A stretch of DNA of 13,935 nucleotides from Chloroflexota bacterium (GTDB taxonomy: Bacteria; Chloroflexota; Dehalococcoidia; Tepidiformales; Tepidiformaceae): positions 1 through 13,935 of the forward strand of contig JANXYE010000657.1 in the NCBI GenBank assembly GCA_025350285.1, written 5' to 3'. Position numbers and translations under genes: made by a program. The notes below the pieces were generated by a model. That model did not search any database and had not been told where the DNA came from. It saw only the letters and a list, made by a program, of their open reading frames with translations. Shown in pieces: positions 4,584 through 13,935 of this stretch. Within the stretch, counting starts at the first letter, position 1. Each line of letters starts with the position of its first letter.

Positions 4584-5393
4584 CTACGGCTGGACCGCCG
4601 CCGCCACCCGCTCGGTACGCCGCCGCTCCTGGTAGTTCCGCACCTTCACCCGGTTCCCGCAGACGGCCATCCAGCACCACGTCCGCGATGCCTTGGGCGA
4701 CAGGTCGTAGAACACCCACCGGCAGTCCGCGCCTGGACACGATTTCAACCGCGTCCATGTGCCGGCGTACATCGCCTCCATAACGGCGGCGAGGATCGCG
4801 CCGGCCACGCCCGCGATTCCCGGCCCCGCCGGATTCAGCACCGGCGCGTGAGGGGTGGCGAAGCGGCCAACCAACGGCGCACTAGCCGCCAGGCCATCCA
4901 GCCGCTCAAGGACCGCGGGGTCGAGCGGCTGACCGTTGTTCGCGAAGACGAGAGCCCTCAGCACCGCTTTGAGGTCCCTCAGGCGCTCAACCTCACCATC
5001 GTTCAGTTCCCCGGCAAGGTCCGATAACCCTCTGGCCGCCAGCCAAACGTGCGCTTCTTCGGGTGAACCAAGGCCCCCGGTTGGCTCTGGTCCGCGCGCG
5101 GCCAGCCGGCGTCCGCCGAGGATCGCGCTCACGAGCGGCTGGCTGATCCCGTACGCCTTCGCCAGGGCCGACTGGCTCTCCCCGCGCGCGTGCCTCCGCC
5201 GGATACTCTCGCCCATGGCCAGCCTGTCCGCCGATGGCTCCGCGTCCAACGCGTTGAGGAATTCGTGCACCAGCCTGAGGCGACCCGGGGCGAGGTGCAG
5301 TTCAATGGCGGTCGTGTCTTCCACCTTCGCATCATGCTTCGCTTGCCGTGCATGACGCAACACCGCCGAATGGTCTTGACAGGTTACTGACAC
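4584..5393 (-). CDS. CGNR zinc-finger transcriptional regulator with inserted helix-turn-helix
   Basis: The C-terminus has the CGNR zinc finger: C219, C224, C240 and C245, the last within the C-G-N-R signature, followed by a basic tail that should contact DNA. The N-terminal ABATE-like domain begins with the typical LRLVHEFLNALD (39-50) and resumes near 'SPEEAHVWLAARGL'. Between them, at about 55-104, sits an extra segment. Residues 62-96 of it (SIRRRHARGESQSALAKAYG, then ISQPLVSAILGGRR) read as a resolvase- or invertase-style helix-turn-helix. The protein thus appears to have two DNA-binding parts. The start is uncertain: GTG 5393 has no SD, and GTG 5324 would start just before the family homology. 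The upstream end faces the propeller operon and overlaps its promoter, so it may regulate that operon. Confidence 0.82.
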   Translation of the reverse strand: MSVTCQDHSAVLRHARQAKHDAKVEDTTAIELHLAPGRLRLVHEFLNALDAEPSADRLAMGESIRRRHARGESQSALAKAYGISQPLVSAILGGRRLAARGPEPTGGLGSPEEAHVWLAARGLSDLAGELNDGEVERLRDLKAVLRALVFANNGQPLDPAVLERLDGLAASAPLVGRFATPHAPVLNPAGPGIAGVAGAILAAVMEAMYAGTWTRLKSCPGADCRWVFYDLSPKASRTWCWMAVCGNRVKVRNYQERRRTERVAAAVQP

Positions 5394-5404
5394 CAGTCTA
5401 GGCT
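5376..5404 (+). promoter_or_regulatory. Candidate promoter of the propeller-VOC-GyrI operon
   Basis: A perfect -35 TTGACA (5376-5381) and TAGGCT (5399-5404, 3 of 6) are separated by 17 bases, 34 bases before the propeller gene. The site overlaps the start region of the divergent CGNR regulator gene. Confidence 0.5.
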
Positions 5405-5438
5405 TGCAGCCGGTTAGTCACCAACATTGGAGACAGAT

Positions 5439-6587
5439 ATGCAGACCCACGTTCTTGTTGGCACGAAGAAGGGCATCTGGACGTACACGTCGGATGAACG
5501 CCGGGAAACCTGGGAGATCTCCCAACCGGCCCTCCCGGGCTGGACCATCAACCACATCAGCATCGATACCCGGCGCGAAACGCCCCGGCTCTACGCGGCG
5601 GCGAACCACTGGGCCTGGGGCCCGTCCGTCGCCCGTAGTGACGATGGCGGCGAGACCTGGGACCAGCGCACGGTCGGCTTCGGTTTCCCCGTGGATATGG
5701 GCGTGACGGTCGCCGCCAGCTGGCATGTCGAGCCCGGACATGCGGACCAGCCGGGTGTGGTTTACGCCGGCGCCCAGCCGGGCGGGATGTTTCGCAGCGA
5801 GGACTGGGGCGAAACATGGGCGCCCGTCGAAGCCCTGAACCGCCATAGGTTCCGCGAGTTCTGGGGCCCGACTGGCTCCGTGGGGGAGTCCTCGCTCCAC
5901 TCAATCCAGGTCGATCCTCGCGAACCGAACCGCATCTACGCCGCTATCAGCACGGGTGGGACGTACGCCACCGAAGACGCCGGCCAGAGCTGGGATCTCT
6001 GCTCGCACAGCCTCGTCGTCACAACTCCCGTCGCCAAAGCCTTCCTGGCGGAGATGGCGGTCTCGTTCCCGCAACCCGATCTGCCGCCTGGCGTCGACCC
6101 GGCCGCGGGCGATGAATTCCACAAGCTCGTGCTTGATGCCAAGCGACCCGACCGGCTCTGGGGCCAGTCCCACGTCGGCGTTTTCAGGTCGGATAATCGC
6201 GGCAAGGACTGGGAAGACGTCACGGCCGGCCTGCCGTCGTTCCACGGGTTCCCGATCGCCGTCACCCGCCGCAACCCGGACGCCGTCTTCGTGGTCCCCC
6301 TCGAGTTCGAGACGTTTAACTTCCGCGTCGTCCGCGGTCAGTTCGCCGTCTGGAGGACGATGGACGCTGGCAAGAGCTGGCAGGCCATGACCAACGGCCT
6401 CCCTGGCCCGCACGACTACCAGAGCGCCTACCGCGAAGCCATGGCCACGGACGGCCTCGAAACCGAGGGCGTCTACGTGGGCACCACCAACGGCGCCGTC
6501 TACGGCAGCAACGACCTCGGCGAACACTGGCGGCGCCTTCCCGGCACGCTCCCCCCGATCCTGTCGGTGACCGCCGGCGCCTGGTAG
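5439..6587 (+). CDS. Seven-Asp-box beta-propeller protein (BNR/sialidase- or sortilin-like)
   Basis: The 382-residue protein has seven regularly spaced Asp-box-type motifs ('S/T-x-D-x-G-x-x-W'): residues 18-25, 67-74, 120-127, 178-185, 251-258, 307-314 and 357-364. Seven boxes at about 50-70 residue spacing imply a seven-bladed propeller, the first box being degenerate (DERRETW). Proteins of this type are often labelled exo-alpha-sialidase or glycosyl hydrolase, but I see no sialidase Arg triad or FRIP motif, so an enzyme function is not supported. There is no signal peptide, so it probably acts in the cytoplasm as a binding or scaffold protein. ATG 5439 is preceded by GGAG at 6 bases. It is first in a likely three-gene operon. 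Confidence 0.85.
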   Translation: MQTHVLVGTKKGIWTYTSDERRETWEISQPALPGWTINHISIDTRRETPRLYAAANHWAWGPSVARSDDGGETWDQRTVGFGFPVDMGVTVAASWHVEPGHADQPGVVYAGAQPGGMFRSEDWGETWAPVEALNRHRFREFWGPTGSVGESSLHSIQVDPREPNRIYAAISTGGTYATEDAGQSWDLCSHSLVVTTPVAKAFLAEMAVSFPQPDLPPGVDPAAGDEFHKLVLDAKRPDRLWGQSHVGVFRSDNRGKDWEDVTAGLPSFHGFPIAVTRRNPDAVFVVPLEFETFNFRVVRGQFAVWRTMDAGKSWQAMTNGLPGPHDYQSAYREAMATDGLETEGVYVGTTNGAVYGSNDLGEHWRRLPGTLPPILSVTAGAW

Positions 6588-6592
6588 CCATC

Positions 6593-6614
6593 GGCCCGGC
6601 CGGACCACCGGGTC
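6593..6614 (+). other. Intercistronic hairpin after the propeller gene
   Basis: GGCCCGG and CCGGGTC pair over seven positions (one G-U) around an eight-base loop, 5 bases after the stop codon. No T-run follows, so transcription probably continues into the VOC gene; the hairpin may set relative mRNA stability. Confidence 0.35.
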
Positions 6615-6666
6615 GCCCACGGACGATGTTCACCACTTCCCCCGAACGGGGCACAGGAGGCAACCC

Positions 6667-7029
6667 ATGATTCTCGGACTCGGCGGAAGCACCATCTGGA
6701 CCAGCGACATCAACAACCTGCTCCCGTTCTACCGCGACACGCTCGGGTTGAAGCCGGGGGTCTCCACCCCGGAGTTCGTCCTCTTCGGCGATCAGATAGC
6801 GCCCGCCCTCGCCGTCGGCCAGCACAGCGAAGTGCGCGGGCGGGCGAGCGACCCGTACCGCCACATGGTCGGGCTGATTACGGATGATATCCACGGCGAC
6901 GCGGCCCGCCTCAAGGAAGCTGGCGTCGAATTCATCGACGAGCCCAACGACCAGGGAGGCGGCTTCTTCCTGGCCACTTTCATCGACCCCGAAGGCAACC
7001 TGATTCAGCTTTATCAGTCCGGGGCGTGA
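6667..7029 (+). CDS. VOC-superfamily (glyoxalase/bleomycin-resistance/dioxygenase fold) protein
   Basis: This 120-residue single-domain protein has paired VOC repeats: 'DINNLLPFYRDTLGLKPG' in the first half and 'HMVGLITDDI... LKEAGVEFIDEP... FIDPEGNLIQLYQ' in the second. Usual metal ligands are partly absent: the first-strand His is replaced (STIWTSD, residues 8-14) and the last-strand Glu is Gln114. His66 is the only clear candidate. It may therefore bind a small molecule without metal, or use different ligands. A perfect AGGAGG lies 6 bases before the ATG. It is 79 bases after the propeller gene and 31 before the GyrI-like gene, consistent with one transcript. Confidence 0.9.
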   Translation: MILGLGGSTIWTSDINNLLPFYRDTLGLKPGVSTPEFVLFGDQIAPALAVGQHSEVRGRASDPYRHMVGLITDDIHGDAARLKEAGVEFIDEPNDQGGGFFLATFIDPEGNLIQLYQSGA

Positions 7030-7060
7030 AGCTCGTACCCGGTACACAAGGAGGGCTCAC

Positions 7061-7525
7061 ATGATCGACACCCCCGAGATCGTCCAGACCACGCCCCAGC
7101 TCACGGCCCGTATTCACCTCGTCATCACGAAGGATGCGATACAGCGCGAGATGGGGCCGGGGATTACCGAACTCATGGCCGTCGTTGCGGCCCAGGGCAT
7201 AACGCCCAGCGGGCCGTGGTTTACGCACCACCTGAAGATTGATCCGGACGGCTGGGATTTCGAGATTAGCGTGCCCGTGCCGACGCCGGTCGCGCCCGCC
7301 GGCCGCGTCCAGCCCGGCGAATGGCCCGCCATGAAGGTCGCCCGGACCGTCTACCACGGGCCTTACGAAGGCATGGGCGATGCCTGGGGCGAGTTCGACG
7401 CCTGGATCGCGGCCAGCGGCCATAGAGCGGCCCCGGACCTCTGGGAATGCTACGTCGCTGGCCCGGAGTCGAACCCCGATCCGAAGAGCTGGCGGACGCA
7501 ACTCAATCGGCCACTCCTGCGGTAG
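7061..7525 (+). CDS. GyrI-like small-molecule-binding domain protein
   Basis: A 154-residue stand-alone GyrI/AraC effector-binding domain. Typical segments are PVAPAGRVQPGEWPAMKVA (76-94), the 'TVYHGPYEGMGDAWGEFDAW' block (96-115) and W128-E129-C-Y near the end, followed by NPDPKSWRTQL. The conserved Glu129 usually sits in the ligand pocket of this fold. There is no DNA-binding domain. Relatives sense or sequester hydrophobic drugs or hydrolyse small molecules; which of these applies is not visible. AAGGAGG precedes the ATG. It is the last gene of the propeller-VOC operon, and the pairing of two ligand-binding folds suggests a shared small-molecule substrate. Confidence 0.85.
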   Translation: MIDTPEIVQTTPQLTARIHLVITKDAIQREMGPGITELMAVVAAQGITPSGPWFTHHLKIDPDGWDFEISVPVPTPVAPAGRVQPGEWPAMKVARTVYHGPYEGMGDAWGEFDAWIAASGHRAAPDLWECYVAGPESNPDPKSWRTQLNRPLLR

Positions 7526-7578
7526 CACCACTCCACACCTTTGGCCGTACCCAATTTGCCCTACTTCAAACGACAACG

Positions 7579-7607
7579 TTGACGGCCTCACGCGCGCACG
7601 CGATCCT
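7579..7607 (+). promoter_or_regulatory. Candidate promoter giving a leaderless yefM mRNA
   Basis: TTGACG (7579-7584) and GATCCT (7602-7607) are 17 bases apart. The -10 ends 6 bases before the yefM ATG, so transcription would start on or next to its A. There is no SD before that ATG, which fits leaderless translation. Confidence 0.4.
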
Positions 7608-7613
7608 GTACGA

Positions 7614-7871
7614 ATGAAAGCGATTTCCTACACTCAGGTGCGCGCCAACCTGGCGAAAACGCTGGACTCCGTTCGGGACAACTGCGAGCCCGTGATCATC
7701 ACAAGAGGCCGCGGTCCATCATACGTCCTGATGACCCTGGACCAGTACGAATCCATGGACGAGACCGCTTATCTGCTCCGAAGCCCGGCGAACGCTCGCG
7801 AGCTGTTCGCCGCCATTGCAGAGCTGCGAGACGGCAAGGGGCGCGTTGAGTCCCCTGACCTGGACGCGTGA
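7614..7871 (+). CDS. Type II antitoxin, Phd/YefM family
   Basis: The 85-residue protein has the YefM/Phd N-terminus 'MKAISYTQVRANLAKTLDSV', then PVIITRGRG and VLMTLDQYESMDETAYLL, the standard dimerisation and DNA-binding half. The acidic C-terminus (about 63-85) should wrap and inhibit the toxin. YefM dimers, and YefM-YoeB complexes, repress their own promoter by binding palindromes in the family. The ATG is chosen because the family homology begins exactly there; the open frame extends upstream but without homology. The stop overlaps the toxin start by four bases (GTGA), so the pair is translationally coupled. Confidence 0.93.
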   Translation: MKAISYTQVRANLAKTLDSVRDNCEPVIITRGRGPSYVLMTLDQYESMDETAYLLRSPANARELFAAIAELRDGKGRVESPDLDA

Positions 7872-8122
7872 ACCTCACGTTCGCGCCACGAGCGTGGGAT
7901 CAGTACCTATTCTGGCAAACGACCGATCGAAAGATGCTGGGACGCATCAACGCGCTCATCAAGGATACGATGCGGACGCCGTTCGACGGGCTTGGGCAAC
8001 CAGAACCGCTCCATGGCAACCTGTCGGGCCTTTGGTCCCGGCGAATAACCCGAGAGCACCGCATGGTTTACGACGTCTCTGATGGGAACCTCCAGATAGC
8101 CCAGCTGCGCTACCACTACTGA
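7868..8122 (+). CDS. Type II toxin, YoeB family mRNA endoribonuclease
   Basis: The toxin has 84 residues, the same length as E. coli YoeB, and the catalytic positions coincide by number: E46, R65, H83 and Y84. YoeB binds the ribosome and cuts mRNA in the A site, stopping translation, until neutralised by YefM. The conserved core WSRRITREHRMVYDV (56-70) is intact, so the toxin looks active. It starts with GTG within the antitoxin stop. Its last codons overlap by 7 bases the 3' end of the methyltransferase gene on the opposite strand, so the catalytic Tyr84 codon shares bases with that gene's stop. Confidence 0.94.
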   Translation: MNLTFAPRAWDQYLFWQTTDRKMLGRINALIKDTMRTPFDGLGQPEPLHGNLSGLWSRRITREHRMVYDVSDGNLQIAQLRYHY

Positions 8123-8910
8123 GCCCCGAGACCCGCAAGCGGCTTCCCCCAGAGGACGTTGCCCGCAATCTGGCGGCGCACGACGCCGTCCGCGCAGTGT
8201 GCCGCAAGGACCTCCCGAACCTCGGCGTCGAAGGCGGGTGCGTCGATATGCGCGCGGGTGAGGTGACTCAGGCCGTGGAAGCCCGCGGTGCACTCCTCCA
8301 CCGTCTGAACGAACTCGACGGGGGCGGTGCGACGTTCGCCCCGCAGTTCGAACAGGCCTCGTTGCTGCCAGAAAGGGATCATGTCGAACGGGACGTACTC
8401 CTTCCAGGTCGAGTGGCGCTTCACGACCTCCCGGATTGGTCCATCCCAGGGGCGTTCGTCCACGGCGACCGTGTTCATCACGGCGAGCATGCCGTTCGCG
8501 GTTAGGGCGCTGGCGAAGCGCGGCAGAAGCAGCTCGGTGTCCATCCAGTGCAGGCTCTGCCCGGCTGCGATGAGCGCGTAGGGCGGACGAAGCGCGTACT
8601 CCTCGCCTCGTGACACCGTCCAGCTGATGCTGGGATGCGTCCCGCCCGGTAACGAACGTCCGACAGCGACCATCTCGGGCGAGAAATCGACCGCCTCGAT
8701 GCTGCTCGCGAACGGCGCCAGGGGGCGAGCAAGGGCGCCCGTGCCACAGCCGATGTCGAGGACGTTGCGGGGCTCGTCCTGGATAAGGTCCAGGAGGATC
8801 TCGAACGTCTCGGGCGGGTAGGTCGCGCGGAACTGACAGCTCGTCGCCGCGTCGAGATCCTGCCAGCGGCGTGCATGTTCACCGTCGAACTGTGGCGCCC
8901 TGGCGATCAC
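8116..8910 (-). CDS. Class I SAM-dependent methyltransferase
   Basis: Motif I is VLDIGCGTGAL (about residues 50-60), with the acidic residue that binds the ribose of SAM at D75 in AVDFSPEMV and 'AGQSLHWMD' as the motif IV region. The rest resembles small-molecule methyltransferases of the Methyltransf_11/25 type. The substrate is unknown. GTG 8910 is chosen because it forms a GTGA overlap with the stop of the transporter ATPase gene, giving 264 residues; the frame extends 19 codons further into the ATPase gene without homology. The coupling suggests it acts with the importer, for example on the imported ligand, but it may simply be a passenger gene. The 3' end overlaps the yoeB gene. Confidence 0.87.
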   Translation of the reverse strand: MIARAPQFDGEHARRWQDLDAATSCQFRATYPPETFEILLDLIQDEPRNVLDIGCGTGALARPLAPFASSIEAVDFSPEMVAVGRSLPGGTHPSISWTVSRGEEYALRPPYALIAAGQSLHWMDTELLLPRFASALTANGMLAVMNTVAVDERPWDGPIREVVKRHSTWKEYVPFDMIPFWQQRGLFELRGERRTAPVEFVQTVEECTAGFHGLSHLTRAHIDAPAFDAEVREVLAAHCADGVVRRQIAGNVLWGKPLAGLGAQ

Positions 8911-9710
8911 GGCGCGGCCCCAGCGGCGATGTCTCTGCGAACGGAACGGGGCAGCGGCACCGGGCATCCCGTCTCCGGGTCCATGAGCACCATCATCGGG
9001 ACGTTGAAGAGACGCTCCAGGTTGCGCGGTTCGAACACCGCAAGCGGCGGGCCATCGAACGCCACCTGGCCTTCACGCAGGGCGAGCACGCGGTCGGCGA
9101 AACGCGCCGCCAGGAGGAGGTCGTGGAGGACCAAGACCACCGTCATCCCGTCCTCGTTCAAGCGCCGAAGGAGGTGCATGACCTCCACCTGATGCTGAAT
9201 ATCGAGGAAGCTCGTCGGTTCGTCCAACAACAGGACCTTCGGCCGCTGGGCAAGCGCCAGGGCTATCCAGGCGCGCTGACGCTCCCCTCCGGAGAGGCTC
9301 CCGAGGGTCCGCTCGGCGAGCGATTCGACGTCGGCCGCCCCCAGCGCCCAATTCACGGCTTCGAAGTCCGGGGCGGTGGCACGTTGCAGGATGCCCTGGT
9401 GCGGATACCGTCCACGCCACACCAGTTCGCGCACCGTGAGGTCTACGCCAGCCGCCGGCGATTGGGGGAGGATCGCGAGCACGCGGGCTACATCGCGCGC
9501 GGCCATCGAACGGATGTCATTCTCGCCGAGCAGGACACGGCCGCTGCTTGGGCGGTGCAGGCGAGCCAGCCCGCGCAGGAGCGTGGATTTGCCGCTGCCG
9601 TTCGGGCCGATGATAGCGACCATCTCGCCAGCGCTGATCGTCACGGACACCTCCCGTACGACCGTTCGGGCGCCGTACCCAAGGGAGAGGGCTTCGGCCG
9701 CGAGCCTCAT
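8907..9710 (-). CDS. ABC transporter ATP-binding protein, FecE/BtuD/FhuC type
   Basis: All ATPase motifs are present in 267 residues: Walker A G35-P-N-G-S-G-K-S-T43, Q-loop Q83, signature L139-S-G-G-E143, Walker B VLLLDE (159-164), D-loop SFLD (167-170) and H-loop H196. It powers import of ferric siderophore, heme or cobalamin across the membrane with the neighbouring permease. The start is ATG 9710 in an ATGA overlap with the permease stop. The C-terminal extension after the H-loop is of normal length for the family. Confidence 0.95.
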   Translation of the reverse strand: MRLAAEALSLGYGARTVVREVSVTISAGEMVAIIGPNGSGKSTLLRGLARLHRPSSGRVLLGENDIRSMAARDVARVLAILPQSPAAGVDLTVRELVWRGRYPHQGILQRATAPDFEAVNWALGAADVESLAERTLGSLSGGERQRAWIALALAQRPKVLLLDEPTSFLDIQHQVEVMHLLRRLNEDGMTVVLVLHDLLLAARFADRVLALREGQVAFDGPPLAVFEPRNLERLFNVPMMVLMDPETGCPVPLPRSVRRDIAAGAAP

Positions 9711-11991: not shown

Positions 11992-12552
11992 GTGACGCAC
12001 CCAGAACTTCCTCAACTGCCCGGTAACCCGAAGGAGATACCCGGGCCGGAACAGGCGATGCTCAAGCTCTCCTACGGCGTGCATGTCATCGGATCCCGCA
12101 GCGAGGCCGGTGACCTGAACGCCATGATCGCCGATTGGGTGATGCAGGTTTCGTTCAAGCCGCGACTGGTGGCCGTGGCCATCGAGAATGACGCTCGTAC
12201 CCTTCGCTTCATCCGCGAGACCGGAGTCTTCAGCGTCAACCTCCTGCACGAGAAAGATGGTGACTCGATCGCGCGGAAGGTCGTCATGCCCTCGGAGTCG
12301 AAGAAGGTGCGCGGGCGGCCGGACGACATGCAGGACCTCGTCTTCAATAAGCTCGAAGGGATCGACTACGCGCTCCATCAGAACGGCTGTCCCGTGTTGG
12401 AGTACGCCCTCGGCTGGTTCACCTGCGACGTGGACGACATGGTCACGACCGGGGACCACACGATTGTGATCGGCCTGGTTACGGATGGCGAGGTCGTTCG
12501 CCCGGGCGAGATGCTTATCGAGCGGGAGTTGGGCTGGGAGTACGCGGGTTAG
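11992..12552 (+). CDS. Flavin reductase-like (FMN-binding split-barrel) protein
   Basis: The 186-residue protein fits the flavin reductase-like domain. It has 'LKLSYGVHVIGSRSEAGDLNAM' at the start, then VMQVSFKPRLVAVAIE, RFIRETGVFSVNLL, and a late CDVDDMVTTGDHTIVIGLV containing the usual GDH segment. Such proteins bind FMN and reduce flavin, or act as flavin-dependent ferric or quinone reductases. GTG 11992 is preceded by GAGGAG at 6 bases. The gene is divergent from the importer operon, with 188 bases between starts, so shared control is possible. A role in reducing an imported ferric complex is an inference from position. Confidence 0.88.
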   Translation: MTHPELPQLPGNPKEIPGPEQAMLKLSYGVHVIGSRSEAGDLNAMIADWVMQVSFKPRLVAVAIENDARTLRFIRETGVFSVNLLHEKDGDSIARKVVMPSESKKVRGRPDDMQDLVFNKLEGIDYALHQNGCPVLEYALGWFTCDVDDMVTTGDHTIVIGLVTDGEVVRPGEMLIERELGWEYAG

Positions 12553-12607
12553 CTTCGGCGAGGGAGGGCGCCGCCCACGCTCTTTCGCCAGCCAGCCAGC
12601 CCGGTCG

Positions 12608-12613
12608 CATAAT
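12608..12613 (+). promoter_or_regulatory. -10 box giving a leaderless purQ mRNA
   Basis: CATAAT (5 of 6) ends exactly 6 bases before the purQ ATG, so the transcript should start at or next to that A. No SD precedes the ATG. The -35 is weak (TTCGCC, 18 bases upstream). Confidence 0.4.
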
Positions 12614-12619
12614 CAGACG

Positions 12620-13321
12620 ATGAAGTTCGCCATCATCCGTTTCCCCGGCACCTGGAGTGACCGCGACTGCCGCCACGTGCTGCAAAACGTTCTGGGGCAG
12701 CAGGCGGACATCGTCTGGCACCGCGAAACGGACCTTTCCGGCTACGACGCGGTGGTGCTCCCGGGTGGGTTTTCCTACGGGGACTACCTGCGCACCGGAG
12801 CAATCGCCCGCTTCTCGCCGGTGATGGACGAAGTGCTCAAGTTCGCCAAACGGGGCGGGCCGGTCATCGGGATCTGCAACGGATTTCAGATCCTCTGCGA
12901 AAGCGGCCTCCTGCCGGGCGTCCTGATGCGCAACGACAGCCTGCAGTTCCGCTGCGAATGGACGCACCTGCGGCGGGAGGGCAACGCGACGCCGTGGGCC
13001 GCTGGCCTGCGCACGGGCGAGGTCATCCGCATCCCCATCAGCCACGGCGAAGGGAACTACTACGCGGACGAAGAAACGGTGGACGAACTGGAAGACGCGG
13101 GCCGCGTGATCTTCCGCTATTGCGAGGCCTCGGGTTTGGTGACGCCGCAATCGAACCCGAACGGCAGCGTGCGCAACATCGCCGGCATCTGCAACGCCGC
13201 GGGGAACGTCCTGGGCATGATGCCGCACCCCGAGCGGGCGGGGGAAGCGCTCGTCGGCGGCAGCGACGGCAACCGGATCTGGGAATCGCTGCTTGCGGGT
13301 GGAAGTCTCGCGACGGTGTAG
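12620..13321 (+). CDS. purQ: Phosphoribosylformylglycinamidine synthase subunit PurQ (glutamine amidotransferase)
   Basis: PurQ releases ammonia from glutamine and passes it to PurL to convert FGAR to FGAM in purine synthesis, together with PurS. The 233 residues match the short, separate PurQ form. The nucleophile is C86 in GICNGFQ and the rest of the triad is H203 and E205 in MMPHPER; VVLPGGFSYGDYLR (45-58) is also intact. The ATG begins the family's MKFAIIRFPG. No purS or purL is seen in the window. The last 56 codons (from about S178) exist as a second copy after hicA, with mostly silent differences, so this tail may have been exchanged or supplied by an inserted cassette. hicB follows after 9 bases. 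Confidence 0.96.
   Translation: MKFAIIRFPGTWSDRDCRHVLQNVLGQQADIVWHRETDLSGYDAVVLPGGFSYGDYLRTGAIARFSPVMDEVLKFAKRGGPVIGICNGFQILCESGLLPGVLMRNDSLQFRCEWTHLRREGNATPWAAGLRTGEVIRIPISHGEGNYYADEETVDELEDAGRVIFRYCEASGLVTPQSNPNGSVRNIAGICNAAGNVLGMMPHPERAGEALVGGSDGNRIWESLLAGGSLATV
13151..13297 (+). repeat. Copy 1 of the duplicated purQ 3' segment
   Basis: This segment matches 13774-13920 at 136 of 147 bases, including 62 identical bases in a row (13154-13215 and 13777-13838). Ten of the eleven differences are silent third positions and one changes an Ala codon to Thr (13247). Homology starts abruptly at codon 178 and fades over the last codons. The two copies flank the hicBA genes as direct repeats, 623 bases apart. 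Confidence 0.9.
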
Positions 13322-13330
13322 GATTGAGTC

Positions 13331-13534
13331 ATGCGTGAGTTCACGGTAGTTGTTGAGCGTGGCGAAAACGGCTGGCTGATTGGCACGGTACCCCAGTTGG
13401 ACGGCTGCCACACCCAGGGACGGACACTGGACGAGCTGATGGCACGGATGCGCGAGGTGATCGAACTCGTGCTTGAAGAGGACACCGAGCCGCCTCATGT
13501 CGAACTTCTCGGTGTCCATCGGATCGCGGTGTGA
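13331..13534 (+). CDS. hicB: Type II antitoxin, HicB-like
   Basis: A compact 67-residue HicB-type protein with the fold's signature: VVVERGENGWLIGTVPQL (6-23), then GCHTQGRTLDELMARMREVIEL (25-46). This partly degraded RNase H-like domain binds HicA and blocks its active site. There is no C-terminal helix-turn-helix or ribbon-helix-helix, so self-repression would need another part. AGGA lies 7 bases before the ATG, within and just after the purQ stop, so it is probably cotranscribed with purQ. Antitoxin precedes toxin, the reverse of classical hicAB, and the stop overlaps the toxin start (GTGA). Confidence 0.92.
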   Translation: MREFTVVVERGENGWLIGTVPQLDGCHTQGRTLDELMARMREVIELVLEEDTEPPHVELLGVHRIAV

Positions 13535-13758
13535 AGGAGCTTCCGGCACTCACCGGCGACGAGGTCGTGAAGGCGCTCGGGCGCGCCGGGTTTTTCAGCG
13601 TGCGCCAGAAAGGAAGTCATGTCCGACTCATCCATAGCGACGGTCGGCGGACGGTGGTTCCCGTCCATCGAGGCGAAGATGTCGACAGGCGTCTCTTGCG
13701 TGCGATCATTCGGCAGTGCGGACTCTCCACAGATGAATTCCTGGAGCTCTTGAAGTAG
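13531..13758 (+). CDS. hicA: Type II toxin, HicA-like mRNA interferase
   Basis: A 75-residue protein with the dsRBD-like HicA fold: LTGDEVVKALGRAGFFSVRQ (7-26), K27-G-S-H30 with the catalytic His30, and VVPVHRGEDVDRRLLRAIIRQCGLS. HicA cleaves mRNA independently of ribosomes until bound by HicB. All key positions are present, so it appears functional. It starts with GTG inside the hicB stop. Its base composition is somewhat less GC-rich than purQ, in keeping with acquired origin. The stop TAG is in the same frame as the purQ tail copy that begins 15 bases later. Confidence 0.93.
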   Translation: MKELPALTGDEVVKALGRAGFFSVRQKGSHVRLIHSDGRRTVVPVHRGEDVDRRLLRAIIRQCGLSTDEFLELLK

Positions 13759-13771
13759 GCCGGTAGTCGAG

Positions 13772-13935
13772 AGTCCAACCCGAACGGCAGCGTGCGCAAC
13801 ATCGCCGGCATCTGCAACGCCGCGGGGAACGTCCTGGGAATGATGCCGCACCCCGAGCGGGCGGGAGAGACGCTCGTCGGCGGGAGCGACGGGAACCGCA
13901 TCTGGGAGTCGCTACTTGCCGGGGCCACGACGGCC
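13772..13935 (+). pseudogene. Second, displaced 3' end of purQ (partial, runs off the window)
   Basis: From 13774 the sequence encodes the PurQ tail [20 protein letters not shown] through MMPHPER and [11 protein letters not shown], including the His and Glu of the triad but not the catalytic Cys region. It has no start codon or SD of its own. Compared with the intact purQ tail, silent changes outnumber replacements ten to one, so it was recently under protein-level selection. After SLLAG the two tails differ (ATTA... against GSLATV), and no stop is reached before the window ends. It is read as the tail of a disrupted or displaced purQ. Confidence 0.85.

Follow-up and report, generated by a model that had tools for sequence, protein, structure and literature searches.

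By what route chromosomal toxin-antitoxin (TA) pairs move when no mobile element is in sight is an open question. The locus described here poses it in a concrete form, as a hicBA pair lies between an intact purQ gene and a second copy of the 3' end of that gene. A duplicated host-gene tail is a structural signature that marks an insertion, can reveal which of the copies represents the original end, and yields testable predictions on the donor and the route. The window, by which we mean the whole stretch of DNA analysed, is the entire contig G000:C540 (13,935 nt) of a metagenome-assembled genome (MAG), G000, that is 82% complete and comprises 691 contigs. The closest named relatives of its purQ come from Dehalococcoidia/Chloroflexi MAGs.

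The right end of the window reads purQ, 9 nt, hicB, hicA, 15 nt, a second purQ tail, 13 nt and the contig end. The intact purQ (12620-13321, + strand) encodes 233 amino acids ending in LLAGGSLATV before the stop codon and matches Pfam GATase_5 with E=1.6e-46. Its own tail (copy 1; 13151-13299, +) is a direct repeat with 93% identity to the distal tail (copy 2, or tail 2; 13774-13922, +), which matches GATase_5 as a fragment with E=1e-11 and keeps its frame open to the contig end, so that neither a stop codon nor a gene beyond it comes into view. The final 13 nt of the contig (13923-13935, +) are not alignable to copy 1. Between the tails stand a hicB-like antitoxin gene (13331-13534, +; HicB_lk_antitox, PF15919, 28.1 bits against a cut-off of 27) and a hicA toxin gene (13531-13758, +; HicA_toxin, PF07927, E=3.8e-20, 72.2 bits), which overlap by 4 nt and form one operon, and the spacer that separates hicA from tail 2 is 15 nt of unrelated sequence. 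The arrangement proposed by a sequence-only reading of this DNA, with hicB-hicA between an intact purQ and a repeated purQ 3' end, is borne out by the open reading frames, the Pfam matches and the direct repeat.

By its domains and overlapping layout the pair can be assigned to the HicBA toxin-antitoxin system, and neutralisation of the toxicity by the partner is predicted. A simple consensus scan of positions 12500-13935 gave no promoter-like site between a match at 12585, in front of purQ, and hicB; hicBA is probably transcribed together with purQ. We rejected a purQ paralogue as the source of tail 2, since G000 contains a single full purQ match. The sequence-only reading had named a second complete purQ as one of the observations that would count against it, and at E<=0.001 only the purQ gene and tail 2 match in this genome. 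The purL gene of G000 is found on a separate contig of 4,593 nt (C117; locus L118), behind a DUF4389-like gene that is itself preceded by about 0.9 kb of other sequence, and the gap between purQ and purL thus seems to contain further inserts. An overlap of C117 with the window end was rejected, as the two share short chance matches only.

A repeat of this length and identity far exceeds what chance would produce. The two tails differ in 11 of 149 columns, with ten synonymous differences and one that replaces Ala with Thr; the earlier count of 11 of 147 bases, divided in the same way, is correct within the boundaries then chosen. These differences bear on the main, though less probable, alternative to the exchange proposed below, insertion with long target duplication, in which a TA unit enters at a staggered break, repair copies the stretch between the nicks, and the tails are initially identical. 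Such an event would have the same geometry, with a duplication of variable length and no transposase seen, and a long direct duplication (149 nt, 93%) does flank the unit in the window. It has also been described for restriction-modification systems, in the parts of the reports available to us (PMC3874152, PMC3031569). We therefore evaluated a drift model, in which the copies were identical at insertion and tail 2 alone drifted, so that about 56-60% of the differences are expected to be replacing. One replacing change or fewer among 11 then has a probability of about 0.0007-0.0017, and the nearly silent-only differences are unlikely if only tail 2 drifted.

The differences are also unevenly placed along the alignment. 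A 62-nt block (13154-13215, +; alignment columns 4-65) is identical to 13777-13838 and forms a candidate exchange region; ten of the 11 differences follow in the 84 nt on its 3' side. A run of at least 62 identical columns with 11 randomly placed differences has a probability of 0.014-0.024, and the mosaic pattern alone is therefore weak evidence; a recombination edge at the block is suggestive only. The sequence-only reading had suggested that the block could be the crossover site; a fixed crossover is not supported, as the start of the distal tail varies between purQ loci (see below).

A protein search returned four purQ proteins (P0001-P0004) that are 98-100% identical to the window purQ; judging by this identity, all apparently belong to one species. 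P0001 ends like the window gene (..LLAGGSLATV) and P0002-P0004 end ..LLAGASGQMVEVAE, on bodies that are 99-100% identical. Of the listed proteins, 71 pairs have bodies that are at least 95% alike, and the lowest end score in these pairs, 0.56, is common to four, namely P0001 against P0002, P0003 and P0004, where length changes too, and P0044/P0111, where it does not. Divergent purQ ends on near-identical bodies suggest that ends have been exchanged between strains, which speaks against target duplication. Up to the contig end, tail 2 reads ..LLAGATTA; this third form is unlike either same-species end, and tail 2 may thus itself precede another cargo. The full-length P0004 carries the same Thr as tail 2. 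Together with the 10:1 ratio of silent to replacing differences, this backs the earlier view that the two tails evolved within working purQ genes, and both indeed look as if they had done so.

The existence of strain variants, with the tail-2 variant present in the full purQ of P0004, also bears on the explanation that the contig is an assembly artefact, in which hicBA and the purQ tail behind it come from two strains of the same population. Tail 2 sits at the very end of a metagenome contig, as such a join might. A graph chimera would nevertheless need a purQ-tail word after hicA in real reads, so that a joint between hicA and the tail should exist, barring a chimeric read, and in other genomes such as G215 and G115 the same structure lies within a contig. 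We consider an artefact unlikely.

These data allow us to propose, with a probability of roughly one half, that hicBA entered at the 3' end of purQ and brought with it the purQ tail of a different strain, by one-sided homologous recombination and an illegitimate second joint. Incoming DNA consisting of a purQ tail and hicBA would pair with the resident purQ, and a crossover would take place inside the tail, in or beside the 62-nt identical block. At its other end the incoming DNA would be fused, with no homology involved, to a point within or immediately ahead of the resident tail. The outcome would be a complete purQ end, a TA pair 9 nt behind purQ, and the old tail as a downstream remnant; repetition at one gene would give arrays with copies of the host tail between successive TA pairs. 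We prefer one-sided recombination for the window because both tails look like the products of working genes and because the ends differ among near-identical proteins. The donor, the exchange event and its timing are what we infer here; the anatomy, its recurrence and the ancestral distal tail in two relatives are observed. DNA uptake by G000 is possible, given that a ComEC homologue is present in this genome.

We evaluated the recurrence of the structure in 91 other Dehalococcoidia purQ loci from 91 genomes, chosen from a first purQ search and from the top of a list of 360 with a purQ match. For eight of these loci the sequence covered about 1.5 kb downstream, and the survey left out L128, where purQ runs off the contig, and G011, G272 and G329, in which purQ is present. 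A second purQ tail was called at E<=1e-4, and TA genes were counted as relatives of the query TA proteins between purQ and purL; weak tail matches in L006/L181, L138, L142 and L009/L184 were excluded as chance or marginal. Second tails were found in 5 of the 91 loci (L112, L121, L126, L133 and L152) and TA genes in 8 of 91 (L112, L113, L114, L115, L121, L133, L146 and L152). A second tail accompanies four of the eight loci with TA genes in contrast to one of the 83 without (Fisher p=1.3e-4), and was not seen in the other four TA-bearing loci. A control with mismatched downstream sequence gave 4 matches in 273, two of them on the real L112 copy. The sequence-only reading had called for a search for other genomes with cargo between purQ tails, and these four loci supply them.

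The TA genes downstream of purQ belong to different families. They comprise hicBA at L146 and L152, hicBA with DUF433 and DUF5615 at L113, hicB only at L114 and L115, and a DUF4258-like gene with DUF2283 at L112, L121 and L133. The possibility that hicBA behind purQ is unique to the window genome was rejected, as G010 and G170, from different families of the class, share the arrangement, with no second tail found in either. Loci of this kind might be expected had an old tandem duplication of purQ-hicBA lost its second unit except for the tail. We regard this explanation as scarcely credible, since the same place is occupied by different TA families and the distal tails of L121 and L152 are continuous with native downstream sequence.

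At L121 the distal tail, its stop codon and the leader to a DUF4389-like gene match the corresponding stretch at the end of purQ in L120, where a genome of the same genus has an empty site, and the proximal tail has a different ending and abuts the TA pair. In our reading of L152, the distal tail ends in the run of codons that overlaps the purL start; the purQ/purL overlap is estimated at 13 nt in relatives of this locus. Because the distal tail continues into native downstream sequence at both L121 and L152, it is the original purQ end there, and the TA pair arrived with, or just behind, the proximal tail. For the window, the purQ searches returned no further genome of its genus (g1) for such a comparison. 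L121 and L133 share one joint and may reflect a single event.

Other features of these loci divide between exchange and target duplication. Counted back from the last base of the stop codon, the distal tail starts at 171 nt in the window, 100 in L112, 69 in L126, 68 in L152 and 43 in L121, and these variable left boundaries favour exchange. Against it, TA genes often lie within a few nucleotides of the repeats, a closeness that points to a defined unit and not to ends of random fragments, and many of the repeats are intergenic. The tails of L126 and L152 are near-identical (1 difference in 62 and 1 in 49, respectively), and silent to replacing differences between tail copies are mixed at L112 (3:5), L234 (12:11) and L238 (8:7), all of which simple target duplication fits equally. 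The single-copy empty site in a close relative, seen for L121 against L120, is likewise as target duplication would predict. The L126 locus (G234:C35) has an organisation of its own, in which a purQ tail with a ribosome-binding leader precedes each of three successive genes, encoding a zinc-ribbon-like protein, a DUF4389-like protein and a further protein related to the first; of the tail copies, the third measures just 15 nt.

A search for copies of the purL head gave hits in 5 of 50 loci. Of the four inspected, L132 is real, L121 and L168 represent DUF4389-like repeats, and L192 looks like another of these. At L132 the first 46 nt or so of purL recur about 157 nt ahead of the gene, with a short insert in between; the two copies are about 1490 and 1647 nt past the purQ stop. 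This is a duplication of a head rather than a tail, which arises without TA genes and at a gene start, and a duplicated purL head around a short insert is what target duplication would leave.

The variable boundaries also bear on whether the pair was placed at the purQ 3' end by site-specific integration, with an integrase acting in trans and the 62-nt block as the att core. The insert leaves its 3'-end target whole beside an identical core, as this would require, and a hicBA pair in G006, a genome of the window's family, is next to tRNA-Gln, the 3' part of which is present in a second copy of 49 nt, a classic att layout. However, the distal tail starts at different purQ positions across genomes and the targets are unrelated genes. 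The nearby integrase that the sequence-only reading suggested looking for was not found on the window contig, and the only PF00589 match in G000 is on another contig (C404), in an assembly that is 82% complete and on a window contig that ends after tail 2. Site-specific integration is therefore very unlikely. The earlier idea of an element that enters the 3' end of a gene and restores its tail holds in that the cassette does sit at the 3' end and the working gene keeps a whole tail; the part that called for a dedicated element is not supported, with no integrase found on the contig, variable boundaries and several TA families at different genes.

We further tested whether direct repeats flank TA loci in general, using the best 30 DUF2283 loci (95 of 197 genomes match) and the best 30 HicA loci (119 of 197), a set of 60 in which the window and two further purQ loci are represented. 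When the 1.3 kb on one side was compared with the 1.3 kb on the other, direct repeats were found at E<=1e-6 around 20 of the 60 TA loci, in contrast to 2 of 30 glyoxalase loci (p=0.008), and a looser threshold raised the count to 23 of 60. Of 30 HicA loci in genomes reached through 48 other purQ loci, 5 had repeats; this proportion does not differ clearly from 20 of 60 (p=0.13), and no gene-tail case was recognised among these five. As a control, 9 of 67 mid-locus stretches near purQ also contained direct repeats at E<=1e-3, some of which, in our reading, come from tandem DUF4389-like genes.

In 7 of the 20 repeat-flanked TA loci the proximal copy is the 3' end of an intact co-directional gene. 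The host tail is that of purQ at L207 and L229, enolase (by Pfam) at L234, a Mg-chelatase/ChlI protein at L201, a type IIG restriction-methyltransferase at L238 and, as read by eye, fdhD at L239 and secA at L257. An eighth case is L212, where we read the repeats as copies of a methylase-like tail. Several other repeats around TA loci are intergenic, and some belong to many-copy repeat families (L235, L248). The tRNA-Gln locus of G006 noted above (L255; G006:C15) carries its hicBA beside the tRNA, with the copy of the tRNA 3' part, 98% identical, on the other side of the pair (1184-1232 and 1763-1836). The window itself contains a further TA pair, a YefM-like antitoxin and YoeB toxin (7617-8122, +; Pfam E=8.2e-22 and 3.1e-36), which we rejected as a second case because it has no close flanking repeat, the only pair in 6600-9200 being 21 nt long at 76%. 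The window also encodes, at 34-696 on the - strand, a protein with an eCIS core domain (PF13699, E=1e-23), from a family linked to contractile injection systems.

Repetition at one gene was evident at two loci. In G054:C33 (L329, oriented 5104-8785) the tail of a type IIG gene occurs in five copies around three TA pairs, in the order type IIG gene, hicBA, tail, hicBA, tail, DUF433-DUF5615, tail, about 1.4 kb, fifth tail and an unrelated gene. Pfam supports the second hicBA and DUF433-DUF5615, and the first hicA contains an in-frame stop. In G119:C20 (L343, 1320-3764) we read two hicBA pairs and DUF4258/DUF2283 genes split by at least four copies of a methylase-like tail.

In G210, enolase is followed by hicBA, a truncated second hicB-like gene, a copy of the enolase tail and a 261-aa frame; next comes the downstream gene found 9 nt behind enolase in G270 and 38 nt behind it in G126. 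We read the insert as ending inside the second hicB gene, fused there to the enolase tail, as an arbitrary fragment end would be. In G230, enolase-hicBA leaves no room for a tail copy before the same downstream gene. The two enolase tails of G210 are about equally far from that of the same-genus G140 (83.7% and 82.5%), and this comparison therefore identifies neither as foreign.

Together these data suggest that TA pairs settle at gene ends, with the host gene kept whole, in bacteria of the same class, and this appears to be a recurrent way for such pairs to settle in Dehalococcoidia. More tentatively, they raise the possibility of an integrase-free TA cassette system in this class, in which the 3' tail of a host gene would act as a recombination handle. 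Strains would swap tail-TA units through homologous recombination within the tail, older units would be pushed downstream with their tails, and recombination between tails would excise a TA pair and leave the gene whole, with addiction counter-selecting the loss. If so, host-gene tails such as those of purQ, enolase and the type IIG restriction gene would be a counterpart of the attC site built from coding sequence. If TA pairs do settle in this way, the ends of indispensable genes would be landing sites that couple addictive genes to an operon without damage, and short orphan gene tails in genomes would be a record of such insertions.

In the literature searched, which covered few subscription journals, we came across no account of TA pairs placed between repeated tails of a host gene; several known systems resemble parts of the structure. 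Integrative elements and islets at gene or tRNA 3' ends leave the 3' end of the target whole, with the displaced end remaining. The window differs from these in having no integrase on its contig, hicBA as its only cargo, and variable boundaries. In integron cassette arrays, TA pairs also stand in arrays with a repeated boundary sequence between them; here the boundary is the coding tail of the host gene, and the likeness is one of array layout. Variable segments flanked by direct repeats have been described, in the part of the source available to us (PMC2884548). In Microcystis, a ParE/ParD-like TA pair behind MaOC1 is likewise fenced by direct repeats, of 152 bp; according to the portion of that paper at hand, these begin 14 bp after the stop codon and are not a coding tail (PMC7935541).

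The closest parallels involve other addictive or protective gene pairs. Insertion of restriction-modification systems with long target duplication was reportedly described by Nobusato in 2000 and by Furuta in 2010. As far as the available parts of two sources go (PMC3874152, PMC3031569), the proposed insertion of restriction-modification genes shares with our loci an addictive gene pair, long direct target duplications of variable length and the lack of a transposase of its own. Unlike those systems, the loci described here carry type II TA pairs, several of them co-directional at the 3' ends of housekeeping genes, the tails in the window differ as if they came from two working genes, and there are arrays in which the host tail recurs from one TA pair to the next. 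For arrays of T6SS immunity genes, homologous recombination on one side combined with an illegitimate joint has been proposed, and the accessible part of that report describes a one-sided homology anchor, an illegitimate joint opposite, an older module displaced downstream and arrays by repetition, as we propose for hicBA (PMC5361080). The difference, within the same part, is that here TA pairs rather than effector-immunity modules are gained, behind housekeeping genes, and the displaced piece is the tail of the host gene.
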